From Flavobacteriales bacterium (GTDB lineage: Bacteria; Bacteroidota; Bacteroidia; UBA10329): a stretch of 64,000 nt of DNA. The translations under genes were made by a program, and so were the position numbers. Shown here one piece after another: positions 44,017 through 58,041 of the stretch; positions within the stretch are counted from its first letter, which is position 1, and each line of letters starts with the position of its first letter. The stretch is from contig JAIPBM010000004.1 in assembly GCA_021739695.1 (NCBI GenBank), positions 1-64,000 of the forward strand, in the 5' to 3' direction. The notes under the pieces are model-generated. The model was not told the DNA's origin. It did not search any database and saw nothing but the letters and a program-made list of their open reading frames with translations.

Positions 44017-47000
44017 ATGAAAAAAATATTACTGTTCATTTTTGCTGCTTCTATTTGTTCTGAGACTGCTTTTTCTCAGATTGAAACAGTTTCTAGATCT
44101 TTCTACAACGCAAGTTCGGTCTCAGTCGATAATCAGGTCTTCCCATTGACCCCTGTCTCTTTTGCTTCAACTGACTTTACTACTGGCTGCGTGGTTTCTG
44201 ATGTTAATGTTGTGATTGAATGGGCCAAAACAGCAGGCACTTGTACTGCGCCTACTGGAGGTAATTCTTTCCATAATGAGACTAGCTTCAGAATAGTTGG
44301 CCCAACTGCCACTCAAGATCTTGCCGTTGCTGGAACCTGGTCTGGCGCTGTTTCGACTACCTCGGTCACCACCACGTTTAGTGATGGAAATGCTATTCCT
44401 TCTGGAACTCCTGTTACTGGGACTTTTGGGCCCAATGCAGGCAGTCTTGCGGTTTATAATGGTCAATCTCCTTTCGGTTCGTGGCATTTAGAAGCTGGTG
44501 ATAACAATATAGGTGCGCCTCTTTGTATTACTTTTTATGAAGTTCAGGTGAGCGTGGATGGTGACGTAACTGCTCCTCTGATAACACTTCCTGCTGATAT
44601 TACCGTAAATGCAGACCTAGGTTCATGTACCTCAACGGTTAGTTGGACACCTGTGACTGCAACTGACGCATGTACTGCAACATTAACTCAATTGAGCGGT
44701 CCAACGAACGGTGGCTTGTTCACAACAGGGGTGACTCCTGTTACTTTTCAAGCTTCTGACCCTTACGGGAATATTGCTACTCAAAGTTTTAACGTAACTG
44801 TTATAGATAATCAGAATCCAACTATCACTTGTCCTGGTACTGTTTTCGCGGGATGCAATACGGTGGTCAATTATCCACTTCCAATTGCGTCAGATAACTG
44901 CTCGGGGGTTACGTTAAGTTTAAGCTCTGGTCCAGCAAGTGGCGGAACTTTTGCTCCTGGAACGACAGTAGTAACATATGATGCAGTTGACGCTTCTGCA
45001 AATGTGGCTTCTTGTTCATTCAATGTTGTTGTGGATGTTCCTTCTACCGATCCCACATCAGTCACTGCAAGTACCACTGCGGTTTGTTCTGGTGCACCTG
45101 TAACACTTTCCGTTAATGGCGGAACATTGGGAACCAATGCCCAATGGTATTGGTACATTGGAAGTTGTGGAGGTCAGTTGGTTGGTGCAGGACAGAGTAT
45201 CACAGTAAATCCATTGTCCACTGCAAACTATTTCGTTAGGGCTGAAAGTTCTTGTAATAGTACTGTGTGCGTCAACGTACTTGTGAATGTAACTGCCGCT
45301 CCAACTGTAGGTTTCAGTGGAATTACAAGTCCAAGCGCATGTGGAGCGGCTGATGGTACTATAACGGCAGTTGGTAGCGGTGGAACACCTCCTTATACGT
45401 TTGTCTGGAGCAACGGATCGGTTGGTGCTACAATTGTAGGACTTGCTGCAGGTCCTTATGAGGTTGAACTCATTGATCAAAATGGATGTACTGATTTTTC
45501 GTCAGTTTCCTTAAATGATCCAGGTGCATCGGTTGTATCTGTTGTAAGTAGTGATATCGATAACATAATTTGTGTGGGAGAGACTGTAACGTTTACCGCT
45601 TCGGGAGCATTTCAATATCAGTTTTACGTTAATGGCATTCCAGTTTCAACGCAAAATCCATTTGTAACTAATGCGTTGCAAAACGGAGATAATATTTATG
45701 TGACAGGTACGGATTACAATTTCTGTACTTACACAACGCAAGGACTTGCGATGACCGTTCATGATAATCCGCTGATTGACGAAACTGTATCTGACCCAAG
45801 TGCGTGTGCAGCTTCTGATGGCACTGTAATTACGAGTGTTTCTGGAGGATTACCACCTTATACATACTTGTGGAGTAATTCTGAAACTACACCAAACATT
45901 TCTGGGCTACCAGCAGGACCATATTTTGTGACCGTAACAGATAATCGTGGTTGTTTTTCCAACGAAACCTATGCCTTGAATGATCCAGGTGCTGCCTCTG
46001 TAACGTTAGCAAGTTCAGAAGATCCTAACAACATTATTTGCGCTGGAGAGTCAATCACATTCACTGCATCTGGTTCTGTTACCTACAACTTCTTTGTTGA
46101 TGGACAGTCAGTTTCCACTACTAATCCGTATACGACCACCGCTCTTACTAATGCTCAGTCAGTAGCAGCAACAGGAACGGATGCGAACAACTGTACTGCT
46201 ACAAGTAATATCATTTATCCGACCGTCAATCCAGGTCCAATTATTTCGTTGATTTCCAATGATACCGATAACGTGATTTGTGTTGGGCAAAGCATTTCGT
46301 TCTTCGCTTCAGGAGCACTTTCGTATGAATTCTTTGTTGATGGTGTGTCTCAAGGACCAGCTAGTTCCACAGCAGTCTTTGTAGCAACTGCTCTTGTTGA
46401 TGGGCAAGTTGTGACTGTTGTAGGTACTGATGGCAATGGTTGTGACGTTGAAAGTACTGGCATCACGGTTACAGTTAACCCTAGCCCTACAATTGCAATA
46501 ACCAGTAGCTCTGATCCTACTTCTTGTGGTGCAACAGATGGTGCGATTACTGCTGAAGCTAGTGGTGGAACCCCAGGCTACACTTATACTTGGAGCAATG
46601 GTGATGTTGGTCCAACGGTTGCGACTCTTAATGCTGGCAATTATTTTGTGTTGGCGACTGACGATGCTGGATGTACTGCAGCTACAAGCGCATCTCTAAG
46701 TGATGTTGGCTCAAGTCCAGTTACTCTGGCTTCAACAGCTACAAATAGCACAATATGCGGTGGCGAGTCGGTAACGTTTACCGGAACCGGAGCAACTACG
46801 TATGTATTCTTCGTAAACGGTCAGCAGGTTACCACAAACAATCCATTCGTTACAGATTCCTTGATGGATGGCGATATCATCGCAGTGATGGGATTGGACA
46901 CACAACTTTGCGCTGCTACCAGTGCACCTGTTACCTACACGGTTCATCCCGAGATTCAGATCGGCATATCTTCTCTTCTCAATCCGAGTACTTGTGGAGC

Positions 47001-48801
47001 TTCTGATGGTCAGATAAATACAATTGTTATTGGGGGTGTTCCAGCTTACACATATGCTTGGTCTAATAGTTTCACTACTGCGAATGCGATTGGGGTTCCT
47101 GCTGGAGCTTACTCTGTTACGGTTACTGATTCTAATGGATGTGAATCAAGTGATGCTGCTTCGTTAAGCGACCCAGGTACCCTTAGTGTTTCTTTGGTTG
47201 CAAGCCCGTCCGGTCTTATCATTTGTGAGGGGACGGAGATTGAGTTTACTGCAGCGGCAAGTAGTGCTAGCACGTTCGAGTTTTTCCTTGATGGAGTTTC
47301 TGTTGGATCAACGAATCCATACCTGAACTCAACGCTAGTTGATGGGCAGACAGTGGCCGTTACTGGCACAGATGTGAACAGCTGTACTGCGACTAGTCCA
47401 GGTTTGACGTATCAGGTGCTTCCTAATCCATCTGTAACCTTGGCGTTCTCGAATCAAGCGTGTTCGAATGGTGCCGAAATAGAATTTGTAGAGGGGTCTC
47501 CAGCAGGAGGTACTTATACGGTTGTCTATAATGGATTCCCAATTATCGGTGACCTTTTCTTCCCAGACCTTGCTGGTCCAGGAGCTATCAATGTTGATTA
47601 CACGTATACAGCTGCAAATGGTTGTTCAACTACTGCTTCAGATGATTATATCGTTTTACAAGCACCGCAGGTTGATTTAGGTAATGACACAACTGTTTGT
47701 AGCATTACACTTGATGCAGGTATCGGATACAACTCTTATGATTGGACAAATACTGGAGAAACAACCCAAACAGTACAAGCTAGTGTGACTGGTATTTACG
47801 AAGTAACTGTAGTTGATGGCAACGGTTGTATTGGGGGGGATCAGATAGCAGTTATAGTTAATCCTATTCCTGCGCCTGTGATATCTGGAGGTGTTCAGTT
47901 CTGTATTGGGGATTCTGCTTATCTAACTACGGATCAATCATATTCAAGTTATGATTGGTCGACCGGATCTACCACCTATGAAGAGGCAGTATATACTTCG
48001 GAGACGGTAACGCTTACAGTAACTAACCAATATGGTTGTGTTGGAACAGCACAAGTGGTTACTGTTATGAATGAGCCTCAACCAGGTGCAGTGATCACTT
48101 GGGATGGACCATTGGAATTCTGTGTTGGTGAATCTGTTCATTTGGACGCAGGACCTGGATATGCATCATACCTCTGGAGTCACGGTTCTACAACACAAGT
48201 TGTCACTATCATTGAATCAGGTCAGTATTACGTGGTTGTTTTGGACGGAAATGGATGTATCGACAGTTCGATGGTTGCAGATCCGGTTATCGTTACTGTT
48301 ACTGACCCAGAGCCTATCGTTCAAGAGTCTGGCGATATTCTGACCATGACCAATGCCACTGATTTCAGTACGTATCAATGGTATTTGAATGGAGACCCAA
48401 TTCCTGGTGCTACTGGTGCTACATATGACATTGCCGGTACAGGTAGTGGAAACTATTCCGTTTGCGTAGTTGATGCTGGTGGTTGCGAAGGATGTTCCTT
48501 TAATTATGAGATGTCATGTTGTGTAGGGATTGAAGAAGCGAATTTTGATGGTAACGTTAATGTTTATCCAAATCCGAATAATGGGCTGTTCACTGTAGAG
48601 GTTGACTTGGTTCAGCAAATGAACCTCAGCATTGGATTGTTCGATGTGATCGGTAAGCAGATTTGGATGGACGATGCAATTGGAAACACAAGCCAAATGC
48701 GTAAGCAATATGATCTGAGCGAAATGCCTGATGGTGTTTACTTCTTGAGAATTCGCGCTGACAATCAGACTACTGTTGTAAAACTCATCAAGCAACAGTA
48801 A
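44017..48801 (+). CDS. Giant secreted T9SS type A protein: P-domain-like, HYR and SprB-like repeats (protein B')
   Basis: A 1594-residue relative of the 34192 protein. The signal peptide ends near AFSQ (residue 21). A P-domain-like jelly roll (FGSWHLEAGDNN) at about 24-180 is followed by two HYR domains (to about residue 345). The central part alternates four SprB-like units (SACGAADG or TSCGATDG, YTYxWSN, VTDxxGC, NDPG or SDPG) with five units carrying an I(I/V)C-G-FTASG core. Ig-like domains and a type A sorting domain (VYPNPNNG, after CCVGI) end the protein. It lacks the GGDECDLDF units of protein B. It is the last gene of the array, closed by a strong terminator. Confidence 0.92.
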   Translation: MKKILLFIFAASICSETAFSQIETVSRSFYNASSVSVDNQVFPLTPVSFASTDFTTGCVVSDVNVVIEWAKTAGTCTAPTGGNSFHNETSFRIVGPTATQDLAVAGTWSGAVSTTSVTTTFSDGNAIPSGTPVTGTFGPNAGSLAVYNGQSPFGSWHLEAGDNNIGAPLCITFYEVQVSVDGDVTAPLITLPADITVNADLGSCTSTVSWTPVTATDACTATLTQLSGPTNGGLFTTGVTPVTFQASDPYGNIATQSFNVTVIDNQNPTITCPGTVFAGCNTVVNYPLPIASDNCSGVTLSLSSGPASGGTFAPGTTVVTYDAVDASANVASCSFNVVVDVPSTDPTSVTASTTAVCSGAPVTLSVNGGTLGTNAQWYWYIGSCGGQLVGAGQSITVNPLSTANYFVRAESSCNSTVCVNVLVNVTAAPTVGFSGITSPSACGAADGTITAVGSGGTPPYTFVWSNGSVGATIVGLAAGPYEVELIDQNGCTDFSSVSLNDPGASVVSVVSSDIDNIICVGETVTFTASGAFQYQFYVNGIPVSTQNPFVTNALQNGDNIYVTGTDYNFCTYTTQGLAMTVHDNPLIDETVSDPSACAASDGTVITSVSGGLPPYTYLWSNSETTPNISGLPAGPYFVTVTDNRGCFSNETYALNDPGAASVTLASSEDPNNIICAGESITFTASGSVTYNFFVDGQSVSTTNPYTTTALTNAQSVAATGTDANNCTATSNIIYPTVNPGPIISLISNDTDNVICVGQSISFFASGALSYEFFVDGVSQGPASSTAVFVATALVDGQVVTVVGTDGNGCDVESTGITVTVNPSPTIAITSSSDPTSCGATDGAITAEASGGTPGYTYTWSNGDVGPTVATLNAGNYFVLATDDAGCTAATSASLSDVGSSPVTLASTATNSTICGGESVTFTGTGATTYVFFVNGQQVTTNNPFVTDSLMDGDIIAVMGLDTQLCAATSAPVTYTVHPEIQIGISSLLNPSTCGASDGQINTIVIGGVPAYTYAWSNSFTTANAIGVPAGAYSVTVTDSNGCESSDAASLSDPGTLSVSLVASPSGLIICEGTEIEFTAAASSASTFEFFLDGVSVGSTNPYLNSTLVDGQTVAVTGTDVNSCTATSPGLTYQVLPNPSVTLAFSNQACSNGAEIEFVEGSPAGGTYTVVYNGFPIIGDLFFPDLAGPGAINVDYTYTAANGCSTTASDDYIVLQAPQVDLGNDTTVCSITLDAGIGYNSYDWTNTGETTQTVQASVTGIYEVTVVDGNGCIGGDQIAVIVNPIPAPVISGGVQFCIGDSAYLTTDQSYSSYDWSTGSTTYEEAVYTSETVTLTVTNQYGCVGTAQVVTVMNEPQPGAVITWDGPLEFCVGESVHLDAGPGYASYLWSHGSTTQVVTIIESGQYYVVVLDGNGCIDSSMVADPVIVTVTDPEPIVQESGDILTMTNATDFSTYQWYLNGDPIPGATGATYDIAGTGSGNYSVCVVDAGGCEGCSFNYEMSCCVGIEEANFDGNVNVYPNPNNGLFTVEVDLVQQMNLSIGLFDVIGKQIWMDDAIGNTSQMRKQYDLSEMPDGVYFLRIRADNQTTVVKLIKQQ

Positions 48802-48821: not shown

Positions 48822-48850
48822 AAAAGCCCCGCTATTAGCGGGGCTTTTTT
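48822..48850. terminator. Bidirectional intrinsic terminator between array and metabolic genes
   Basis: Perfect stem AGCCCCGCT/AGCGGGGCT with an ATT loop, flanked by A-tract and T-tract, sits between convergent genes (stop at 48801 and stop at 48871) and can serve both strands. Confidence 0.92.
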
Positions 48851-48870: not shown

Positions 48871-50232
48871 CTATCCTCTCAAGTGGTAGCTTTTAGGCTG
48901 TACAAAGGTTCTGATTCCTGCATGCGAAAGGGTTGAACCTAGGCCTGATGCACCACGTCCGCTCCAAGGAAGGTTTGGGCTTACACGATCGCAGCAATTC
49001 CAGTAAACGGTACCAGAATTCAATTGATTCATCAATCCAAGTGCACGCGACTCGTCAAGCGTATAAACAGCCGAAGTCAATCCGTAAGGAGTGTCTAGCA
49101 TCAGCTTAACAGCTTCTGCATCACTCTTCACTTTCTGGATTCCGATTATAGGCCCGAAACTTTCATCCAGCATCACTTGCATGCTGTGATCTACATTGGT
49201 TAGAACAGTAGGTTCAAAGTAGTAGCCATTACCACCTGTTGGTTTGCCTCCCAGTAAAAGTTCAGCACCCTTAGCAACGGCATCAGCAACCTGTTGTTCC
49301 AACACGGCCACTTGTTGAGACCGAGTAAGTGGCCCAATAAAGGTTCCTTCTTCGCTCGGTGCGCCCAACTTCATGGTCTTTGCTTCTTCTACGAAAGCAG
49401 CCACATAATCCTCATAGATATCCTCGTGAACGTAAATCCGTTCTACCGCACAACAACTTTGGCCATTGTTGTAAAAAGCTCCTTCAACACCTGCTGCAGC
49501 GGCTGATTTTACATCAACGTCTTCGCAAACATACATTGGGTCTTTTCCACCAAGTTCCAATCCAACTGGAACGAGTTTGCTGGCAACACGTTCTGCAATG
49601 TATTTTCCTGTGCCGTATGAACCAGTGAAGAAATATCCGTTCAACGGCAAATTCAAAAGGGCTTCTCCAGCGTCTTTCGCTCCTATCACCACTTGAAAAA
49701 CATCCTTCGGAACGCCTGCTTGCCAAAGCATATCAGCCATGTTCAAACCCGTAAGCGTGCTGAATTCTGATGGCTTGTAGAGCACTGCGTTTCCACCGAT
49801 AAGCGCTGGAATAAATACGTTCATTCCAACCAGAATAGGGTAGTTCCATGCGGAAATATTGGCAATTACGCCAAGTGGTTCATACATCAGTTTTTCCCGA
49901 GTAGCTCCTTCAGTAACCATCCACTCTTCTGCCAGGTATTTCTCACTGTTCTCAACGAAATACTGACTTCTGCCAACACCTCCGTTTATTTCTCCTTTGG
50001 CCTGACCAAGCGGTTTTCCGACCTCGGCACTTAGGTCTGCTGCAATCTTATTGGCATTGGCCAACATAAGCTCATTGAACTTGGCAATGCAAGCAATTCG
50101 CTCCTTCAATGGCACTTGCGCCCATTGTTTCTGAGCAGCTTTAGCAGCCTCATATTTGCTTTGAATGGATGCAGCGGTATCTTCTGCAATCTCCTTAATG
50201 ACCGCTTCTGTAGCGGGATTGATGATTTTCAT
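48871..50232 (-). CDS. NAD(P)-dependent aldehyde dehydrogenase
   Basis: A 453-residue member of the ALDH superfamily. Visible landmarks are the cofactor lysine K153 in YKPSE, the general-base glutamate E226 in LELGGKDP and the catalytic cysteine C260 in NNGQSCC. The enzyme oxidises an aldehyde to the acid. Its start overlaps the stop of the upstream gamma-glutamyl hydrolase gene (ATGA), showing translational coupling. That partner, with the glutamine-synthetase-like gene and Fe-alcohol dehydrogenase nearby, suggests the substrate is a gamma-glutamylated amino aldehyde, as in the PuuC step of putrescine use. Sequence alone also fits a succinate-semialdehyde-type or general ALDH. Confidence 0.9.
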   Translation of the reverse strand: MKIINPATEAVIKEIAEDTAASIQSKYEAAKAAQKQWAQVPLKERIACIAKFNELMLANANKIAADLSAEVGKPLGQAKGEINGGVGRSQYFVENSEKYLAEEWMVTEGATREKLMYEPLGVIANISAWNYPILVGMNVFIPALIGGNAVLYKPSEFSTLTGLNMADMLWQAGVPKDVFQVVIGAKDAGEALLNLPLNGYFFTGSYGTGKYIAERVASKLVPVGLELGGKDPMYVCEDVDVKSAAAAGVEGAFYNNGQSCCAVERIYVHEDIYEDYVAAFVEEAKTMKLGAPSEEGTFIGPLTRSQQVAVLEQQVADAVAKGAELLLGGKPTGGNGYYFEPTVLTNVDHSMQVMLDESFGPIIGIQKVKSDAEAVKLMLDTPYGLTSAVYTLDESRALGLMNQLNSGTVYWNCCDRVSPNLPWSGRGASGLGSTLSHAGIRTFVQPKSYHLRG

Positions 50233-50978
50233 TTATCTGTTTTAGCGAATGACAAAAATGTGTTGATGATCTTAAACGGATCGATAAGCTTATTGCCCAA
50301 GGTGTGGAAGAATTCGGGATGCCATTGCACACCCAATATCTTTCCAGGTTCAGCATTTTCGTGGATGAATGCCTCCAGAATCCCATCTTCTATGCAATAG
50401 GCTTGCGGAATAAGTCCTTTTCCAATGTCTTTTGCGGCCTGATGGTGAACAGAATTGACCATCGGGGTTTCCGAATTCTTATACAATGATTCTAAGAACG
50501 AACCCGGTTCGAACCGTACTCCGTGATGTACATGGTCATATTCAATCGCATCGCGGTGCTTGATGCTTTCAGGCCGTTGAGTGTCAATGTCCTGAAAAAG
50601 TGTTCCTCCGTAATAGGCGTTCATGAGTTGAAAGCCTCGGCAAATGCCAAGAACCGGCTTTTCTTCCTTGATGAAAAGATCCATCAGTTCCAATTCATAC
50701 TCATCTCGGATACGATCTCCTAGCCATCTTCCTATGGGTGCTTCGCCATAAGATTCAGGCGCTAGATCGGCACCACCTTGCAGCACCAAACCATCCATTT
50801 CCTTGATGATTGCCAGCTTTTCAGCTTTCGGCAATTCAGGAATAAGTACTGGCATTACATTAGGTCTTGCAATGTAAGCGGCCATGTCGTTTTCGAGGTA
50901 CGAAAGTGTTTTCGGTCCGAAGGTTGTCCTGTCTAGGTCAGGATGGAAAAAGCACGCAGAAACTCCGATTTTGATCAT
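50229..50978 (-). CDS. Class I glutamine amidotransferase-like gamma-glutamyl hydrolase (PuuD-like)
   Basis: With the ATG at 50978 the product is 249 residues; an upstream in-frame start at 50999 would add seven unlike the family. The nucleophile C113 lies in GICRGFQ, and H220 with E222 in QWHPEF complete the triad of peptidase C26/PuuD-type hydrolases. These enzymes cleave the gamma-glutamyl amide bond, for example of gamma-glutamyl-GABA, releasing glutamate. The gene is the first of a two-gene operon with the aldehyde dehydrogenase and is divergent from the vWA/DUF1573 gene, with 60 bases between the starts. Confidence 0.9.
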   Translation of the reverse strand: MIKIGVSACFFHPDLDRTTFGPKTLSYLENDMAAYIARPNVMPVLIPELPKAEKLAIIKEMDGLVLQGGADLAPESYGEAPIGRWLGDRIRDEYELELMDLFIKEEKPVLGICRGFQLMNAYYGGTLFQDIDTQRPESIKHRDAIEYDHVHHGVRFEPGSFLESLYKNSETPMVNSVHHQAAKDIGKGLIPQAYCIEDGILEAFIHENAEPGKILGVQWHPEFFHTLGNKLIDPFKIINTFLSFAKTDK

Positions 50979-51038
50979 GGCGCAAAGATACATTTGCAAT
51001 ACGTCCGTGCTTGCAGCGTTCCTTAACTTTATCGCTGT

Positions 51039-52850
51039 ATGAAGTTGCTAATTCAGACACTTTTCTTGGCTCTTGTTCCGCTTGCGCTTTTAGGGCAGAA
51101 TGTCAAGTGGGAAACAACCTCAATCAATTTTGGAACTGTTCGCGATTGGAATAGTCCTGAAGCGACTTTCAAGTTTACCAACACAGGAAAGACTAAGCTG
51201 ATGTTCTTGCCACAGAAGCATAGTCGTGATGTGTTGGTCCGTTATCCCAATCGTGCTTTTCAGCCAGGCGAGTCTGGCGAGATCACCATTCAATATTACA
51301 CTTCCGAACAAGGTGCTTTTTCAAAAACGGTTGAGGTTTACACCAATGTTTCAAACAGGTCTCAACAGCTCACGGTGAAAGGAAATATCAAGAGCATTTA
51401 CGCGAATGCCCTTACTTCGTGCCCATCTTTCCAAGATCCAGCACCAGCAAAAAGCTCTGATCCTAATGTGGTTCAAGTGGTGGATGCAGCCACAAATCGT
51501 CCTATTCCGAACGCGAAGGTCGAAGTGTTTGACCGCGGCATTCGAAAGGCCATGAATGGAACCAATTTAGAAGGCGTTGCCGTTAATTGGATTGAGTCAG
51601 GGAAATACGTTGCGGTCGCTTCGAAGCTTGGATACGAAAAGGCTGAACAGGAAATCGTTTTTACTAAAAGGGATCGGACTCAAGTAATCTATTTGAACCG
51701 GAGATCGACCGAGACTGAAATCAATACGGAAGAGTTGCTTGTAGCTGTTGAGGATAGGAGGGATGAAGTGAATGAGAAACCAGATGAAAGATATCAGACA
51801 TCAGCACCCGTTCAGGAAGTTATCGACTTGGGAATTACCACCAATGATGTTTTGGAAAACGAACGTGAGCAGTTGGACGAAATTGATCTTGGAATTACGA
51901 TCAATCAGGTTATGTCGGATGAATCAGTTGATGCACGAACAAATGATTTCGAAGACGTTGATCTAGGAATTAGTTCGAATGAGCAATGGGAAGAGCCAGA
52001 GATTGCGGGTGCGGAATCAAACAGAAGTGCCGAAGAAGTCAATGAAGAAGACATCGATCTTGGAGTAGCCACGAATGATCAATTGGAAGAGGAAAATGTA
52101 CGACCCTTGGCTACTGAAGTTGAACTATCCGAAATCATTGATCGTGAACCTGTGCCGATTGAAGTCGAAGCATCGGAAATAGAAAATGAAGTTGAAGCGG
52201 CTTTGGCTGAGGCTGAAAGGAATGAAGTTGAGTATGACTTAGAGTCTGAATCGGAGCCTGAATTCTCCAATGAGAAATATCGCCCAAATAATGTGCTATT
52301 GCTATTGGATGTGTCTGGTTCTATGAATGACGATGGTAAGATGGATAAGCTGAAATCCTCTATTCGCAGGTTGGTGATGATGCTTCGCGAAGTGGATGTG
52401 CTGACAATGATTGCGTACAATTCAGATTCGTGGGAACTGCTGCCACCAACTCCGGTGAAGGATAATCTGGCAATTTTGGCGTTGGTGGATAGCCTCGAAC
52501 CTTTTGGTTATACCAACGGTGTAAAAGGAATGGAAACGGCCTACGAAAGCCTGGAAAAGCAGCTCATCCAAGGTGGAAATAATCAACTCATTATTGCAAC
52601 TGATGGAAAATTCAACTCCTCTAAATTCTCTGAGAAAGACGCTATTCAACTTGTGAAGGATAATTCTGACAAGGGAATTGTGCTTTCAATCATCGGCTTT
52701 GGCGAGGATAAGGAAGCGGCTAAAATGATGAATAAACTGGCCGAGATGGGTGATGGAAACTTTCTTCAAGTAAGAGACGATGAAGACCCAACAGAATTGC
52801 TTGCTGAAGAAATTAAAAACCGTTCCCGCGTTTTAGGAGAGACACATTGA
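51039..52850 (+). CDS. Secreted DUF1573 + carboxypeptidase-regulatory-like + vWA domain protein
   Basis: A 603-residue protein with a signal peptide ending near LLGQ (residue 20). Residues 22-115 are DUF1573-like (INFGTVRDW, then FTNTGKTKL). Residues about 148-225 resemble a carboxypeptidase-regulatory-like beta-sandwich (VVDAATNRPIPNAKVEV). A very acidic linker at about 225-410 carries four spaced copies of a (I/V)DLG(I/V)xxN motif (near residues 262, 282, 307 and 338). A von Willebrand A domain fills the rest, with a metal-binding DxSxS motif (DVSGSMND, near 423) and later ATDGKFN. No T9SS tail is seen. Location is likely periplasmic or outer membrane. Function is unknown; vWA domains mediate protein-protein contacts. 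Confidence 0.87.
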   Translation: MKLLIQTLFLALVPLALLGQNVKWETTSINFGTVRDWNSPEATFKFTNTGKTKLMFLPQKHSRDVLVRYPNRAFQPGESGEITIQYYTSEQGAFSKTVEVYTNVSNRSQQLTVKGNIKSIYANALTSCPSFQDPAPAKSSDPNVVQVVDAATNRPIPNAKVEVFDRGIRKAMNGTNLEGVAVNWIESGKYVAVASKLGYEKAEQEIVFTKRDRTQVIYLNRRSTETEINTEELLVAVEDRRDEVNEKPDERYQTSAPVQEVIDLGITTNDVLENEREQLDEIDLGITINQVMSDESVDARTNDFEDVDLGISSNEQWEEPEIAGAESNRSAEEVNEEDIDLGVATNDQLEEENVRPLATEVELSEIIDREPVPIEVEASEIENEVEAALAEAERNEVEYDLESESEPEFSNEKYRPNNVLLLLDVSGSMNDDGKMDKLKSSIRRLVMMLREVDVLTMIAYNSDSWELLPPTPVKDNLAILALVDSLEPFGYTNGVKGMETAYESLEKQLIQGGNNQLIIATDGKFNSSKFSEKDAIQLVKDNSDKGIVLSIIGFGEDKEAAKMMNKLAEMGDGNFLQVRDDEDPTELLAEEIKNRSRVLGETH

Positions 52851-52876
52851 GTTGGACTCGGATTTCGGCCCACAAA

Positions 52877-52906
52877 AAAAGCCGATACATTTCTGCATCG
52901 GCTTTT
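52877..52906. terminator. Bidirectional intrinsic terminator
   Basis: Stem AAAAGCCGAT/ATCGGCTTTT with a ten-base loop, with A-run and T-run on either side, lies between convergent genes ending at 52850 and 52926. Confidence 0.88.
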
Positions 52907-52925
52907 CAATTTCAATATTCAAATA

Positions 52926-53360
52926 TCAATGATCGTGACCAGAATGATCAGTTCCATCATTTGGATCATGAGCTGGAGCGTTAACCACACCTTTGATACG
53001 GATCACTTTTGAAGACTCAACAGCATTTGAAGTCAACGTAACTGTTTTCTCGAATGCACCAGTTCTTTTTGTGTCATAATGAACTTTGATGGTCGATGAA
53101 GCTCCTGGAGCAATCGGCTCTTTTGGCCATTCTGGCGTAGTACAACCACAAGATCCTTTTGCATTTGAAATGATCAATGGCTCAGTTCCTACGTTCGTGA
53201 ATTTGAACTCTCGGTTACCGTCAGAATCATTTTCAATGGTTCCGTAATCCAATGTTTCAGTTTCAAATTTGAAAGCTGCTCCGCCTGCTGCTTCTTCTTG
53301 GGCAAAAGCGAAAGTTGATGTTGCAAACAATGCAACCAAGGCAATAACTGTGTTTTTCAT
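52926..53360 (-). CDS. DUF1573 periplasmic protein with His-rich tail
   Basis: A 144-residue protein with a signal peptide (ending near AFAQ, residue 21) and one DUF1573 domain. DUF1573 domains adopt an Ig-like/ASH-type fold and are abundant in Bacteroidota; the typical CGC motif is seen in GSCGCTTPEWP. The C-terminus, after the domain, is acidic and His-rich (DHSGHDH), which could bind metal ions. The gene lies 34 bases downstream of the Fe-alcohol dehydrogenase gene on the same strand, so it may be read from the same transcript. Function is unknown. Confidence 0.88.
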   Translation of the reverse strand: MKNTVIALVALFATSTFAFAQEEAAGGAAFKFETETLDYGTIENDSDGNREFKFTNVGTEPLIISNAKGSCGCTTPEWPKEPIAPGASSTIKVHYDTKRTGAFEKTVTLTSNAVESSKVIRIKGVVNAPAHDPNDGTDHSGHDH

Positions 53361-53394
53361 TAGTAATAGATTTTGTTTGAAATTCCTTTAGCAA

Positions 53395-54540
53395 TTAGAG
53401 TGCCGAACGGTAAATATCGTAGAAATTATTTCTTGACACAGGTTTTGGGTTATTTGGATGGCAGAAATCTGCGAATGCAAGATCGGCCAACGGCTCCAAA
53501 TGTTCTTCTTTTACCTCAATTGCCGACAATCTGGTAGGAAGTCCTAAGCGCTCGTTCAGTTTAAACAGCTCATCGATCAATTGGATTCCGTTTCCATTTT
53601 TCAAACCGATAGCATTCGCCATGGCTTCAAATCGGTCTTCAAATCCATCCAAGTTGAATTTCATTCCATAAGGAAGATTCACTGCATTCGCCAAACCATG
53701 ATGTGTATCCAACAATTGCGAAAGTGGATGAGCCAATGAGTGAACTACACCCAAACCTTTTTGGAATGCTACTGCACCCATCAAACTTGCGAGCATCATA
53801 TCGGCACGTGCCTGCTCATTCTGTCCTTCATGAGTCGCTTTTTCAATTGATCTGCCGATCAACTTTATGCCTTCAAGTGCAATTCCATCACACATTGGGT
53901 GATAATTCTTTGCAACGTATGCTTCCATGTTGTGCGTTAGGGCGTCCATTCCAGTAGCTGCAGTCACGAATGGCGGCAAGCCAAAAGTTAGAGATGGATC
54001 GGCAAAAACACGGCTTGCCAACAATTTTGGCGAGAAAAGGATTTTCTTCTGATGCGTCACGTCATCTGCAATGATGGCGCTTCGACCAACCTCACTTCCG
54101 GTTCCGCTTGTGGTAGGAACAGTTACGAAATACGGCACATCTTCGGTCACATATTGATCACCACCGATAAGGTCATCATAATCAAATAGGTCGCGGTGAT
54201 GATTGATGGCCAAAGCAATAGCACGCGCTACATCCAATCCAACACCACCGCCAATTCCGACTATACTATCGCAATCCGCACCTGCAAAAGCTGCCTTGCC
54301 TTTCAGCACGTCCGATTTTACCGGGTTTTTGTGCATTTCTGCATACACGGTTGGTTCCAGTCCTGCTTTTTTCAGTCCATCGATTATTTCTTGGAAGAAA
54401 GGAAGTGTGGCAACAATAGGGTCTGTAACCACCAGTGGTCGCATTTTTCCCTGCTCTTTCAGGTGGGCAGGAAGTTCCAAAATGGCACCAGATCCGAAGC
54501 GGATAACTGTCGGGAAATTGAATTGAACTATTTGACTCAT
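53395..54540 (-). CDS. Iron-containing (group III) alcohol dehydrogenase
   Basis: A 381-residue protein of the Fe-ADH family. The NAD-binding GGG loop is seen in VGIGGGVGLD, the conserved TTSGTGSE follows at about 143-150, and the four metal ligands by alignment with FucO are D199, H203, H267 and H281 (motifs GMDALTH, VVHSLAHPL, THHGLANA). It interconverts a primary or secondary alcohol and its aldehyde or ketone with NAD(P)H. Position between a gamma-glutamyl hydrolase/ALDH pair and a glutamine-synthetase-like gene suggests it may oxidise a gamma-glutamyl amino alcohol. A general alcohol dehydrogenase or lactaldehyde reductase role remains possible. Confidence 0.92.
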   Translation of the reverse strand: MSQIVQFNFPTVIRFGSGAILELPAHLKEQGKMRPLVVTDPIVATLPFFQEIIDGLKKAGLEPTVYAEMHKNPVKSDVLKGKAAFAGADCDSIVGIGGGVGLDVARAIALAINHHRDLFDYDDLIGGDQYVTEDVPYFVTVPTTSGTGSEVGRSAIIADDVTHQKKILFSPKLLASRVFADPSLTFGLPPFVTAATGMDALTHNMEAYVAKNYHPMCDGIALEGIKLIGRSIEKATHEGQNEQARADMMLASLMGAVAFQKGLGVVHSLAHPLSQLLDTHHGLANAVNLPYGMKFNLDGFEDRFEAMANAIGLKNGNGIQLIDELFKLNERLGLPTRLSAIEVKEEHLEPLADLAFADFCHPNNPKPVSRNNFYDIYRSAL

Positions 54541-54623
54541 TTTAGTTTAGTAACGATAGATTTTGAGGACGTAAAGCTAATCTGCACATTGATCTGTATA
54601 TTCGTATCATCAATACAAAACAC

Positions 54624-55118
54624 ATGAAGTTTTTAACCACCCTTTCAATTGCCGCATTGCCTTTCCTAGGTATGGCGCAATCCATCGAGCCAGAAGTAAT
54701 TGCCAGTGCTGGCGAGCATTTCGATAACGGTTCAGTTCAGCTTAGTTGGACACTTGGCGAGGTGATGATTGACACCTACGATAATGGAACAAACATTCTT
54801 ACTCAAGGTTTTCATCAAACAAACCTGACAGTGACTTCCATTGAAGAAACATTGGCTGATATTCGATTGAACATGTACCCGAATCCAACGTCAGAGTTGC
54901 TGAACATTGAATTGGGAAATAACGAATCTGACATCAATCTTCAATTATTTGATATGAGCGGAAAATTGGTTCATCAGGCGAAAATTGAGGCCTATCAGAC
55001 CAAGTTCGTACTTCCTATGAATCAAGTTGCAACTGGCAATTACCTGGTTCAAATGCAAAGCGTTGATGGGAAAATGAATACTACCCATAAAGTGATTAAG
55101 GCTGGAGTTACGCAATAA
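54624..55118 (+). CDS. Small secreted protein with T9SS type A sorting domain
   Basis: A 164-residue product with a signal peptide ending near GMAQ (residue 19), a short beta-rich segment (residues 20-72, with LSWTLGE and TQGFHQ motifs common in small Bacteroidota T9SS cargos) and a complete type A sorting domain beginning at MYPNPTSE (about residue 89). The mature passenger is only about 50 residues, unlike the giant cargos in this window. It has its own terminator and is divergent from the Fe-ADH gene by 83 bases. Function is unknown. Confidence 0.87.
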   Translation: MKFLTTLSIAALPFLGMAQSIEPEVIASAGEHFDNGSVQLSWTLGEVMIDTYDNGTNILTQGFHQTNLTVTSIEETLADIRLNMYPNPTSELLNIELGNNESDINLQLFDMSGKLVHQAKIEAYQTKFVLPMNQVATGNYLVQMQSVDGKMNTTHKVIKAGVTQ

Positions 55119-55137
55119 TCCGAAATTGATATAAATG

Positions 55138-55165
55138 AAAAAGGCCGCTCTACCGCGGCCTTTTT
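55138..55165. terminator. Bidirectional intrinsic terminator
   Basis: Stem GGCCGC/GCGGCC, extended by A and T tracts on both sides, with loop TCTACC, lies between convergent genes ending at 55118 and 55184. Confidence 0.88.
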
Positions 55166-55183
55166 ATTTGTCAGAAATTGAGA

Positions 55184-56551
55184 TTAAATAATCTCAAAAT
55201 ACCTTTTCGTTTCCCAATCAGTAACCGCTTTAGAGAATTCGCGCCATTCCCATTCGCGTGTGGCAACAAAATGGTTCACAAACTCTTCTCCGAACAGTTG
55301 TTTCGGAATGTCTGAATTCTTCATGGCCTGTGTTGCATCCCAAAGATTTCTTGGAAGTGTTCCCGCTCCTTTGTCGGCATAACCATTACCGATTGTTTCT
55401 GGCAATTTGAGTTCGAGTTTGTTCTCAATTCCATACAAACCAGCTGCCAAACAGGCCGACATGGCGATGTACGGATTGGTATCAGAACCAACTACGCGTG
55501 TTTCCAATCGACAGGATTTTGCCCCAGCAGGAAGCGCTCTCAGCGCCACGGTTCTGTTGTCAACTGCCCATGTCAATGTTGTAGGCGCCCAAGCACCTTC
55601 TACCAAACGCTTGTAGCTGTTGATGGTAGGAGCGATCATTGGCAAGATGTACGGTAGACAAGCCAATTGCCCGGCCATGTAGCTTTCCATCAGTTTGCTC
55701 ATGCCCTTATGGCCTTTGGCATCGGAGAAAAGGTTCTTCTTTTCGTCCCAAAGACTTTGGTGAATGTGTCCGCTGCAGCCAGGTAGTTTCGGACTGATCT
55801 TCGCCATGAACGTTGGAATGACGCCATGTAGATGCGCAATCTCCTTCACCCCGCCTTTGAACAGAACTGCTCTATCAGCAGATTGCAGAATATCTCCGTA
55901 CATGATGGCTGCTTCGTAAACTCCTGGGCCAGTTTCGGTGTGCAAGCCTTCTATCGGCACATCAAATTGATCCATGTATTCGAAAATGTCGTTGAAATAT
56001 TCCTTCTCTTGCGAGCTTCTCAAAAGCGAATACCCGAACATTCCTGGTGTAAGTGGCTGCGGCTTGGTAAATCCACGTTCGTGCAGATCATCAGCATTCT
56101 CAGCAAAATTGAACCATTCAAATTCCTGACTGAAAAATGGTTTGAAGCCCATTTTCTCAGACTTTGCTTTTACGGTTTTGAGCAAACTTCTTGGACAAAC
56201 GCCCAATGGTTTTTCTTGAGCATTGACAAAATCTGCCAAGAAAAAAGGAACGTCATCATCCCACGGAACGAGGCGGAAGGTGCTGAGGTCGATGCGCGCT
56301 TGTGCATCTGGGTAACCGGTGTGCCAACCTGTGTAGCTCACGTTATCGTAGGCTAAGTCTGAGCTGTCCCATCCGAAAACCACATCGCAGAAACCAAAAC
56401 CGCCCTCTACCGCAGAAAGGAACTTGTCTTTGCGCATGAGTTTGCCACGGAGCACGCCATCAATATCGGTGACGGCCACCTTGATCTTATTGTGTGATGA
56501 GTTGCGAACCTCGTTCAGAATGTGTTCGCGTGAAAGTTCTTTGTCGTTCAT
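55184..56551 (-). CDS. Glutamine-synthetase-family ligase (gamma-glutamyl-amine synthetase-like)
   Basis: A 455-residue protein of the glutamine synthetase superfamily. An N-terminal beta-grasp-like part (VTDIDGVLRGKLM) is followed by the catalytic barrel with ETGPGVYE (metal-binding Glu), GCSGHIHQSLW (the GxxxHxH segment that binds ATP and metal) and NRTVALRALPAG (substrate arginines). The length is close to PuuA and GlnT-type ligases (about 450-470) rather than GSIII, and no GSI adenylylation loop was recognised. Such ligases attach glutamate through its gamma-carboxyl to an amine. The flanking permease and the nearby gamma-glutamyl hydrolase, ALDH and ADH genes support amine catabolism over ammonium assimilation; the amine itself is not known. 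Confidence 0.88.
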   Translation of the reverse strand: MNDKELSREHILNEVRNSSHNKIKVAVTDIDGVLRGKLMRKDKFLSAVEGGFGFCDVVFGWDSSDLAYDNVSYTGWHTGYPDAQARIDLSTFRLVPWDDDVPFFLADFVNAQEKPLGVCPRSLLKTVKAKSEKMGFKPFFSQEFEWFNFAENADDLHERGFTKPQPLTPGMFGYSLLRSSQEKEYFNDIFEYMDQFDVPIEGLHTETGPGVYEAAIMYGDILQSADRAVLFKGGVKEIAHLHGVIPTFMAKISPKLPGCSGHIHQSLWDEKKNLFSDAKGHKGMSKLMESYMAGQLACLPYILPMIAPTINSYKRLVEGAWAPTTLTWAVDNRTVALRALPAGAKSCRLETRVVGSDTNPYIAMSACLAAGLYGIENKLELKLPETIGNGYADKGAGTLPRNLWDATQAMKNSDIPKQLFGEEFVNHFVATREWEWREFSKAVTDWETKRYFEII

Positions 56552-56584
56552 GGAATTAATGTGTTGTTTGATTTGAGAAATCCT

Positions 56585-56691
56585 CCGCCTTACTTCGACA
56601 AGCTCAGCACTGGCCGTGCCTTGGCACCTCCTTTTAAAGGAGGAACCAGCTCATTCTCCCTTTTAAGTGGGTGTCACGAAGTGACGGGGGA
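56585..56691. repeat. Composite intergenic palindromic element
   Basis: The 140-base gap between the permease and ligase genes holds three short hairpins in a row: GTGCC-TT-GGCAC (56616-56627), CCTCCTTT-T-AAAGGAGG (56627-56643) and GTCAC-GAA-GTGAC (56673-56685), preceded by the segment TTCGACAAGCTCAG. It resembles the REP-like intergenic repeats familiar from Bacteroidota genomes. Only one copy is present in this window. Confidence 0.6.
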
Positions 56692-58041
56692 TTAAGTTTT
56701 GCCATAGATTAATTTATACGCAACGAATGAGCCTGCCATCAGGCCAATGAAAATGAGTGCCAATTGTAAGTTGTAGTAGCTCATCGCCACCATAGAAATG
56801 CTGGCGATGATCAATGCCAAAGCAGGAAAAATAGGGTAGAAGGGAACTTTGAACGGTCGTTCCATATCGGGTTCGTTCTTTCTCAGTCTGAAGAAGGAAA
56901 TCATGGATATGATGTAAAGCGCCAAGGCCCCGAAAACAGCAATTGTAATTATTTCATCAGTCCGTCCTGATAGTAATGCAATGAGCCCGACAACCATGTT
57001 GGCGATAAGGGCTACAGCAGGAGTCTTAAACTTAGGGTGAACCTTTCCTAGAGCTTTGGGAGCCAAATTCATTCGTCCGAATTCGTAGGTGGCACGACCT
57101 GCTGCAAGGATGATTCCGTGGAAGGAAGCAACGAGCCCAAAGATTCCAACATAGATCAGTAGGTTGTACAGCATGCTATCGGCACCAACGGCATGCGATA
57201 AGGCCAGCAGAAGAGGCTTGTCCGAAGCGACTCCTGGCGATTCATAGACAATTGCTTCCCAACCCGCCACACCAACAGAGGAAGTAAAAGTCAATATGCA
57301 TAGAATCACCAACGTAAGAATAGCTGAGCCAAAACCTATGAGGACATTCCGTTGCGGATTGATGGTTTCTTCGGCCACGTTTGCCACGCCCTCAATCGCC
57401 AAGAAAAACCAGATGGCAAAGGGAATGGCAGCAAAAATTCCAGGAATTCCATTGGGGAAGGCGTTGGTGGTCAAGTTCACCATTTCGAAGTGGGGGAGAC
57501 TCGCTCCCGCAAAGACCAACAGTTCGATGACGGCAATGATGGTGACGAAAAGTTCGAATGAGGCGGCCAATCGTACTCCGATGATGTTCACCAAAGTAAA
57601 AATCAAGAAAGCCGCCATGGCGACTACCGGAATGTTTGTTTCACCGAGGAATGGGATAATAGCCACGTAATCTATTTGAACCTTGGTGTTGACAAATGCT
57701 CCAATCGCTGCGGCAATGGCAGGCGGAGCAAACACAAACTCGATGATCTGCGCCATGCCTCCCAAAAATCCCCAGTTTCTACCCAGTGCCCTGTCCGCAT
57801 AGTCGAAGGCACCACCAGCCTTGGGAATGGCGCAGGCCAATTCGGTGTAGCTGAAGGTGAAGGTCATGTACATGATAATGATGAAGAACGTGGCAATGGC
57901 CAAACCAAGGGTTCCGCCTGCTTCAAGGCCGTAGTTCCAGCCGAAATACATGCCCGAGATCACGTAGCCAACGCCCAAGCCCCAAAGCATGATCGGGCCA
58001 AGTGTGCGTTCTAATTTGGGTGAATCGGTGGTGTTTTCCAT
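56692..58041 (-). CDS. APC-superfamily amino acid/amine permease
   Basis: From the ATG at 58041 the product is 449 residues; an in-frame TTG at 58065 would add eight. About twelve membrane helices are visible. The first contains the unwound segment GVGYVISGMYFGWN, the substrate site in APC transporters, and a conserved loop PKAGGAFDYADRALGRNWGF follows helix 2-3. The family imports amino acids, polyamines or ethanolamine by H+ symport or exchange. Placement next to the glutamine-synthetase-like ligase (140 bases downstream, same strand) suggests that it supplies that enzyme's amine, as PuuP does for PuuA. Ethanolamine-type permeases (EutP/Eat) share this size and layout. Substrate is inferred from context only. 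Confidence 0.9.
   Translation of the reverse strand: MENTTDSPKLERTLGPIMLWGLGVGYVISGMYFGWNYGLEAGGTLGLAIATFFIIIMYMTFTFSYTELACAIPKAGGAFDYADRALGRNWGFLGGMAQIIEFVFAPPAIAAAIGAFVNTKVQIDYVAIIPFLGETNIPVVAMAAFLIFTLVNIIGVRLAASFELFVTIIAVIELLVFAGASLPHFEMVNLTTNAFPNGIPGIFAAIPFAIWFFLAIEGVANVAEETINPQRNVLIGFGSAILTLVILCILTFTSSVGVAGWEAIVYESPGVASDKPLLLALSHAVGADSMLYNLLIYVGIFGLVASFHGIILAAGRATYEFGRMNLAPKALGKVHPKFKTPAVALIANMVVGLIALLSGRTDEIITIAVFGALALYIISMISFFRLRKNEPDMERPFKVPFYPIFPALALIIASISMVAMSYYNLQLALIFIGLMAGSFVAYKLIYGKT

Follow-up and report, generated by a model that had tools for sequence, protein, structure and literature searches.

A conserved gene set predicted to encode ethanolamine catabolism by gamma-glutamylation in Bacteroidota and Bdellovibrionota

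The window considered here, the whole stretch of 64,000 nucleotides that was analysed, is part of contig C4 (JAIPBM010000004.1) of a Flavobacteriales genome of 4.24 Mb that is 98.5% complete. It carries five intact genes, all on the minus strand, at the positions where a sequence-only reading by a model had placed them, and each belongs to the superfamily which that reading had assigned. They encode an APC permease of the Eat type (56692-58041), matching TIGR00908 and predicted to take up ethanolamine; a glutamine synthetase (GS)-like gamma-glutamyl ligase (55184-56551), matching Gln-synt_C, a predicted gamma-glutamylethanolamide synthetase; an Fe-dependent alcohol dehydrogenase (FeADH; 53395-54540), matching the Fe-ADH Pfam family, a predicted gamma-glutamylethanolamide dehydrogenase; a PuuD-like hydrolase with the C26 class-I amidotransferase fold (50229-50978; Peptidase_C26, 175 bits), a predicted gamma-glutamylglycine hydrolase; and an aldehyde dehydrogenase (ALDH; 48871-50232; Aldedh, 442 bits), a predicted gamma-glutamylacetaldehyde dehydrogenase. 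The reading frames of the last two share 4 nt.

In the window the set does not constitute one uninterrupted operon, since it is split by three unrelated genes. These are a DUF1573/VWA gene on the plus strand (51039-52850), a DUF1573 gene on the minus strand (52926-53360) and, on the plus strand, a gene with a T9SS-like tail whose product looks secreted when the sequence is inspected by eye (54624-55118). The nearest named relative, a Flavobacteriales MAG with a 96% identical GS, has its VWA and DUF1573 genes in the same places. Terminator-like hairpins on the minus strand, identified by consensus match only, lie directly 3' of the GS gene (55138-55165; 11-bp stem and T tract) and of the ALDH gene (48822-48848; 12-bp stem and T tract). 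The former possibly ends a permease-GS transcript and the latter a hydrolase-ALDH transcript, and therefore at least two transcripts may exist in the lineage of the window. Promoter-like sites were no more frequent than in shuffled sequence. The cluster adjoins a gene (44017-48801) whose large, repeat-rich product is apparently secreted and carries a T9SS-type tail at its C terminus.

A residue alignment revealed that the GS-like ligase keeps the metal- and ATP-binding residues and most of the glutamate-binding ones, and that two residues of the ammonia-using GSI enzymes are replaced, E327 by W and Y179 by F; the D50 column still holds D, within a longer loop of uncertain alignment. Both replacements agree with what has been published on GlnA4 and on ligases related to it, and the comparison with GlnA4 employed its published residue mapping (PMC6529630). 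The enzyme had been described earlier as PuuA-like, a label which is correct for the superfamily but otherwise loose, given that it scores 199 bits against the gamma-glutamylputrescine synthetase (GGputSyn) equivalog model, where the cut-off is 650, and that E. coli PuuA is distant from it in the GS tree. Two well supported clades were resolved in that tree, one containing the proteobacterial ethanolamine ligases together with PDB entries 11zs and 5dm3, which we take to be the Chromohalobacter enzyme, and the other containing the group of the window with relatives from Legionella and Rhizobium. The ligase of the window is not, therefore, an orthologue of the proteobacterial ethanolamine ligases, and the pathway does not require that it should be. 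At the Y179 position it carries F, as against E in most of the proteobacterial enzymes, and it is 39% identical to the annotated isopropylamine ligase IpuC, the placement of which in the tree is weakly supported (96/32), compared with 33% for the proteobacterial ethanolamine ligases. Identity of the GS alone does not fix the substrate because close relatives occur in another Bacteroidota family without the dehydrogenases. Other GS genes of the same genome are located on contig C47, and no relative of the GS was found among the viral contigs searched.

For the remaining enzymes, catalytic residues are also conserved, including the metal ligands D, H, H, H of the FeADH, the catalytic Cys and Glu of the ALDH and the Cys-His-Glu triad of the hydrolase. 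The FeADH is 39-40% identical to the FeADHs of ethanolamine clusters and 30% to FucO, while for the ALDH the corresponding values are 38% for the ethanolamine-cluster enzyme and 31% for PuuC. Among the best plasmid matches of the FeADH are some from proteobacterial clusters with the gene order RpiR-FGase-TRAP-GS-ALDH-FeADH, and the FeADH tree, with few outgroups and long branches, groups it with the enzymes of the proteobacterial ethanolamine clusters. Identity of the hydrolase to an enzyme encoded in the isopropylamine region of Paenarthrobacter TC1 (37%) exceeds that to PuuD (30%), and the FGase-type amidohydrolase of the published clusters was not found in the genome of the window. At some related loci (L023, L024 from Terrimonas, L030 and, in genome G033, L150) the C26 and ALDH domains form one protein of about 700 residues, both domains being confirmed by Pfam in L023, L024 and L150. 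This fusion puts the hydrolase beside the reaction of the ALDH.

The permease scores 435 bits against TIGR00908, the NCBI equivalog model for ethanolamine permeases, and exceeds its curated cut-off of 382. In the plasmid collection its closest named relatives share about 45% identity with it and carry the annotation eat; all three that were inspected adjoin eutBC. Six occurrences of the family were detected among 148 sampled Bacteroidota genomes; four, the window included, lie beside a GS of the window type, another is located 87 bp from EutB (G099), and the sixth falls inside a different glutamylation-type cluster (G064). A search of the window's genome showed that EutB is absent, and a glycine decarboxylase that could use the pathway product is encoded there. 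Judging from these similarities, ethanolamine is most likely the substrate of the cassette and is the best candidate for it.

Genomic contexts were compared for 80 relatives of the GS, 56 of which had at least 2.5 kb of sequence upstream and at least 4.5 kb downstream. All five genes occur in the order permease-GS-FeADH-C26-ALDH, on one strand and separated by median distances no greater than about 45 nt, at 32 of the 56 loci, and 11 others carry the four enzymes, bringing the total to 43 of 56, although these loci are not independent samples because they are best matches and partly redundant, with many from Pedobacter. Some of the 11 lack an adjacent permease and some have C26 and ALDH as one protein; the 11 include L078, which was missed by the ORF filter and found by BLAST. 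The loci span Bacteroidota and Bdellovibrionota, with a compact same-strand operon in most of the related Bacteroidota and some Bdellovibrionota, and its recurrence in many genomes is more than chance. Moreover, in eight genomes where the GS gene lies apart from the full enzyme set, an FeADH orthologue is kept in all eight (56-83% identical) and an ALDH orthologue in seven (58-77%), and in four of the genomes of this kind that were inspected the FeADH, C26 and ALDH genes are still near each other. At the same thresholds, both orthologues are absent from six genomes whose GS relative neighbours a kinase-like gene, usually together with a HAD gene, and the GS proteins of such genomes branch outside the operon-carrying group.

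Several variant arrangements were encountered. In Bdellovibrionota and one MAG labelled Proteobacteria (L025, L026, L050, L055, L060 and L064) the operon is found with or without an adjacent permease. Breakdown of phosphatidylethanolamine releases ethanolamine, and predatory members of Bdellovibrionota would meet much of this lipid. In Emticicia and a Cytophagaceae MAG (L042, L072 and L073) the GS gene is flanked by an ATP-grasp-like gene and a gene for a GntP-like permease, apart from the FeADH-C26-ALDH genes. A close GS relative accompanied by a conserved 350-aa protein is present in 15 of the 148 sampled Bacteroidota genomes (L109-L123; L152:6341-9637), 14 of which belong to one family (f22) and also carry a HAD hydrolase. 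The motifs FVDWNIGN and RWDYDWF of the 350-aa protein resemble, by eye, those of small-molecule kinases, and it yielded no match in Pfam or PDB. In the G064 cluster of Bacteroidota (L148:4291-9898) the GS belongs to the proteobacterial ethanolamine clade and is accompanied by an SDR dehydrogenase, an ALDH, a class-I amidotransferase and an Eat permease; this cluster represents a further variant in which the FeADH is replaced. A related GS-ALDH-FeADH-amidotransferase cluster is carried on a plasmid of Legionella lytica, an amoeba-associated bacterium (L097:7950-12597).

Conversion of ethanolamine to glycine via gamma-glutamylethanolamide, an aldehyde and gamma-glutamylglycine has been published for Phaeobacter, Chromohalobacter and Streptomyces (PMC10132767, PMC6529630). 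The published cluster order is regulator-amidohydrolase-TRAP-GS-ALDH-alcohol dehydrogenase, and in Phaeobacter phosphorylethanolamine induces most of the cluster proteins and EtoX binds ethanolamine (PMC10132767), while for Streptomyces GlnA4 glutamylation of ethanolamine was shown in vitro (PMC6529630). We also found this layout on plasmids of Paracoccus, Ruegeria and Qingshengfaniella, and in Sinorhizobium and Rhizobium with an amino-acid permease. The cluster of Phaeobacter, Chromohalobacter and Agrobacterium (EtoVWX, ETAGA, GAADDH, GETADH and GGAH; PMC10132767) has the reaction order predicted here, with glycine as product, and shares with the window a GS-like ligase, an ALDH and an alcohol dehydrogenase, an FeADH in those clusters of the same layout that we read. 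However, clusters of that type employ an FGase-type final hydrolase (PF05013) and TRAP transport, whereas the window has a C26 hydrolase and an Eat permease, its GS falls in a separate clade and it lacks an RpiR regulator. For the GlnA4 pathway of Streptomyces coelicolor (SCO1611-SCO1615) the same reaction order is predicted, but with a predicted amidohydrolase of the formylglutamate family, without a conserved ethanolamine permease and in another phylum (PMC6529630). The region encoding IpuC, according to the plasmid annotation of Paenarthrobacter aurescens TC1, resembles the window in its ligase and in a neighbouring C26-type hydrolase (39% and 37% identical, respectively) but it contains a P450/ferredoxin oxygenation set, and neither FeADH nor Eat permease was found there. 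The ammonia-lyase route, Eat-EutBC, uses the same permease family which, in the window's genome lacking EutB, would feed glutamylation instead.

We consider it likely that the five genes encode ethanolamine catabolism by gamma-glutamylation, with substrate and individual reactions predicted from what was observed directly, namely the genes present and their conserved order, the intact catalytic residues, the fusion of two of the genes and the co-occurrence. Ethanolamine would enter through the Eat-type permease and would be joined to glutamate by the GS-like ligase, at the expense of ATP, to yield gamma-glutamylethanolamide. The FeADH would oxidise this to gamma-glutamylacetaldehyde, the ALDH would generate gamma-glutamylglycine, and the C26 hydrolase would release glycine and regenerate glutamate. 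An amino-alcohol route, with ethanolamine as one example, had been proposed from the sequence alone, and it gains support from the Eat-type permease, the nearest relatives of FeADH and ALDH and the conserved module. The same proposal held that no free aldehyde arises; an aldehyde intermediate does remain, albeit glutamyl-protected. It also held that the order of steps differs from that of the classical putrescine pathway, which is true of the alcohol dehydrogenase step but is not new, having been published for ethanolamine (PMC10132767, PMC6529630).

The same chemistry could act on another primary amino alcohol, converting 3-aminopropanol to beta-alanine or L-alaninol to alanine, and the position of the GS outside the known ethanolamine-ligase clade, its resemblance to IpuC and the similarity of the C26 enzyme to that of the isopropylamine region favour such a substrate. 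We regard this as unlikely, given that the permease is of the Eat type and has its closest named relatives beside ethanolamine ammonia-lyase, that FeADH and ALDH are nearest to ethanolamine-cluster enzymes, and that an oxygenase comparable to the one in the isopropylamine region is missing from the conserved neighbours. Much less probable still is a putrescine or polyamine pathway resembling that of E. coli, with PuuB- and PuuE-type enzymes encoded elsewhere. Ligase, ALDH, C26 hydrolase and permease do share superfamilies with PuuA, PuuC, PuuD and PuuP, and the genome encodes five class-III aminotransferases. However, in the E. coli pathway the oxidase PuuB acts on an amine, whereas the window offers a dehydrogenase for an alcohol, no PuuE, a distant GS and a different predicted substrate. 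The absence of PuuB- and PuuE-type enzymes had already been remarked upon, and in agreement a genome-wide comparison with E. coli PuuB yielded no more than a match of 40 residues and none of the five aminotransferases is encoded on contig C4. The low GGputSyn score of the GS, the missing PuuB and the conserved FeADH in its place led us to reject the putrescine reading, with which the Eat-type permease is also at odds. A housekeeping role of the GS in ammonia assimilation, the genes around it being unrelated, would suit the GS fold and the complete metal and ATP residues but is similarly very improbable; it was rejected on the grounds of the replaced E327 and Y179 and the other GS genes of the genome, and the conserved operon and co-occurrence also argue against it.

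The predicted ethanolamine catabolism by gamma-glutamylation would thus follow a known pathway with an enzyme set that differs in its separate GS subfamily, in C26 and Eat proteins in place of FGase-type hydrolase and TRAP transport, and in its host phyla. A literature search of partial coverage yielded no paper on ethanolamine glutamylation in Bacteroidota or on ethanolamine use by Bacteroidota without EutBC, and none was found on aminopropanol glutamylation. It is conceivable, at somewhat less than even chance, that the version of the pathway found in Bacteroidota and Bdellovibrionota was assembled separately, with this GS subfamily gaining its ethanolamine specificity independently of the proteobacterial ligases and the FGase-type enzyme being replaced by a C26 hydrolase, which in some cases is fused to the ALDH. 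The fusion protein constitutes a directly testable candidate for a two-step enzyme. If the proposed function is correct, generic annotations as glutamine synthetase would be corrected, and the gene set would serve as a marker of Bacteroidota that use ethanolamine without relying on the B12-dependent EutBC, extending to Bdellovibrionota.
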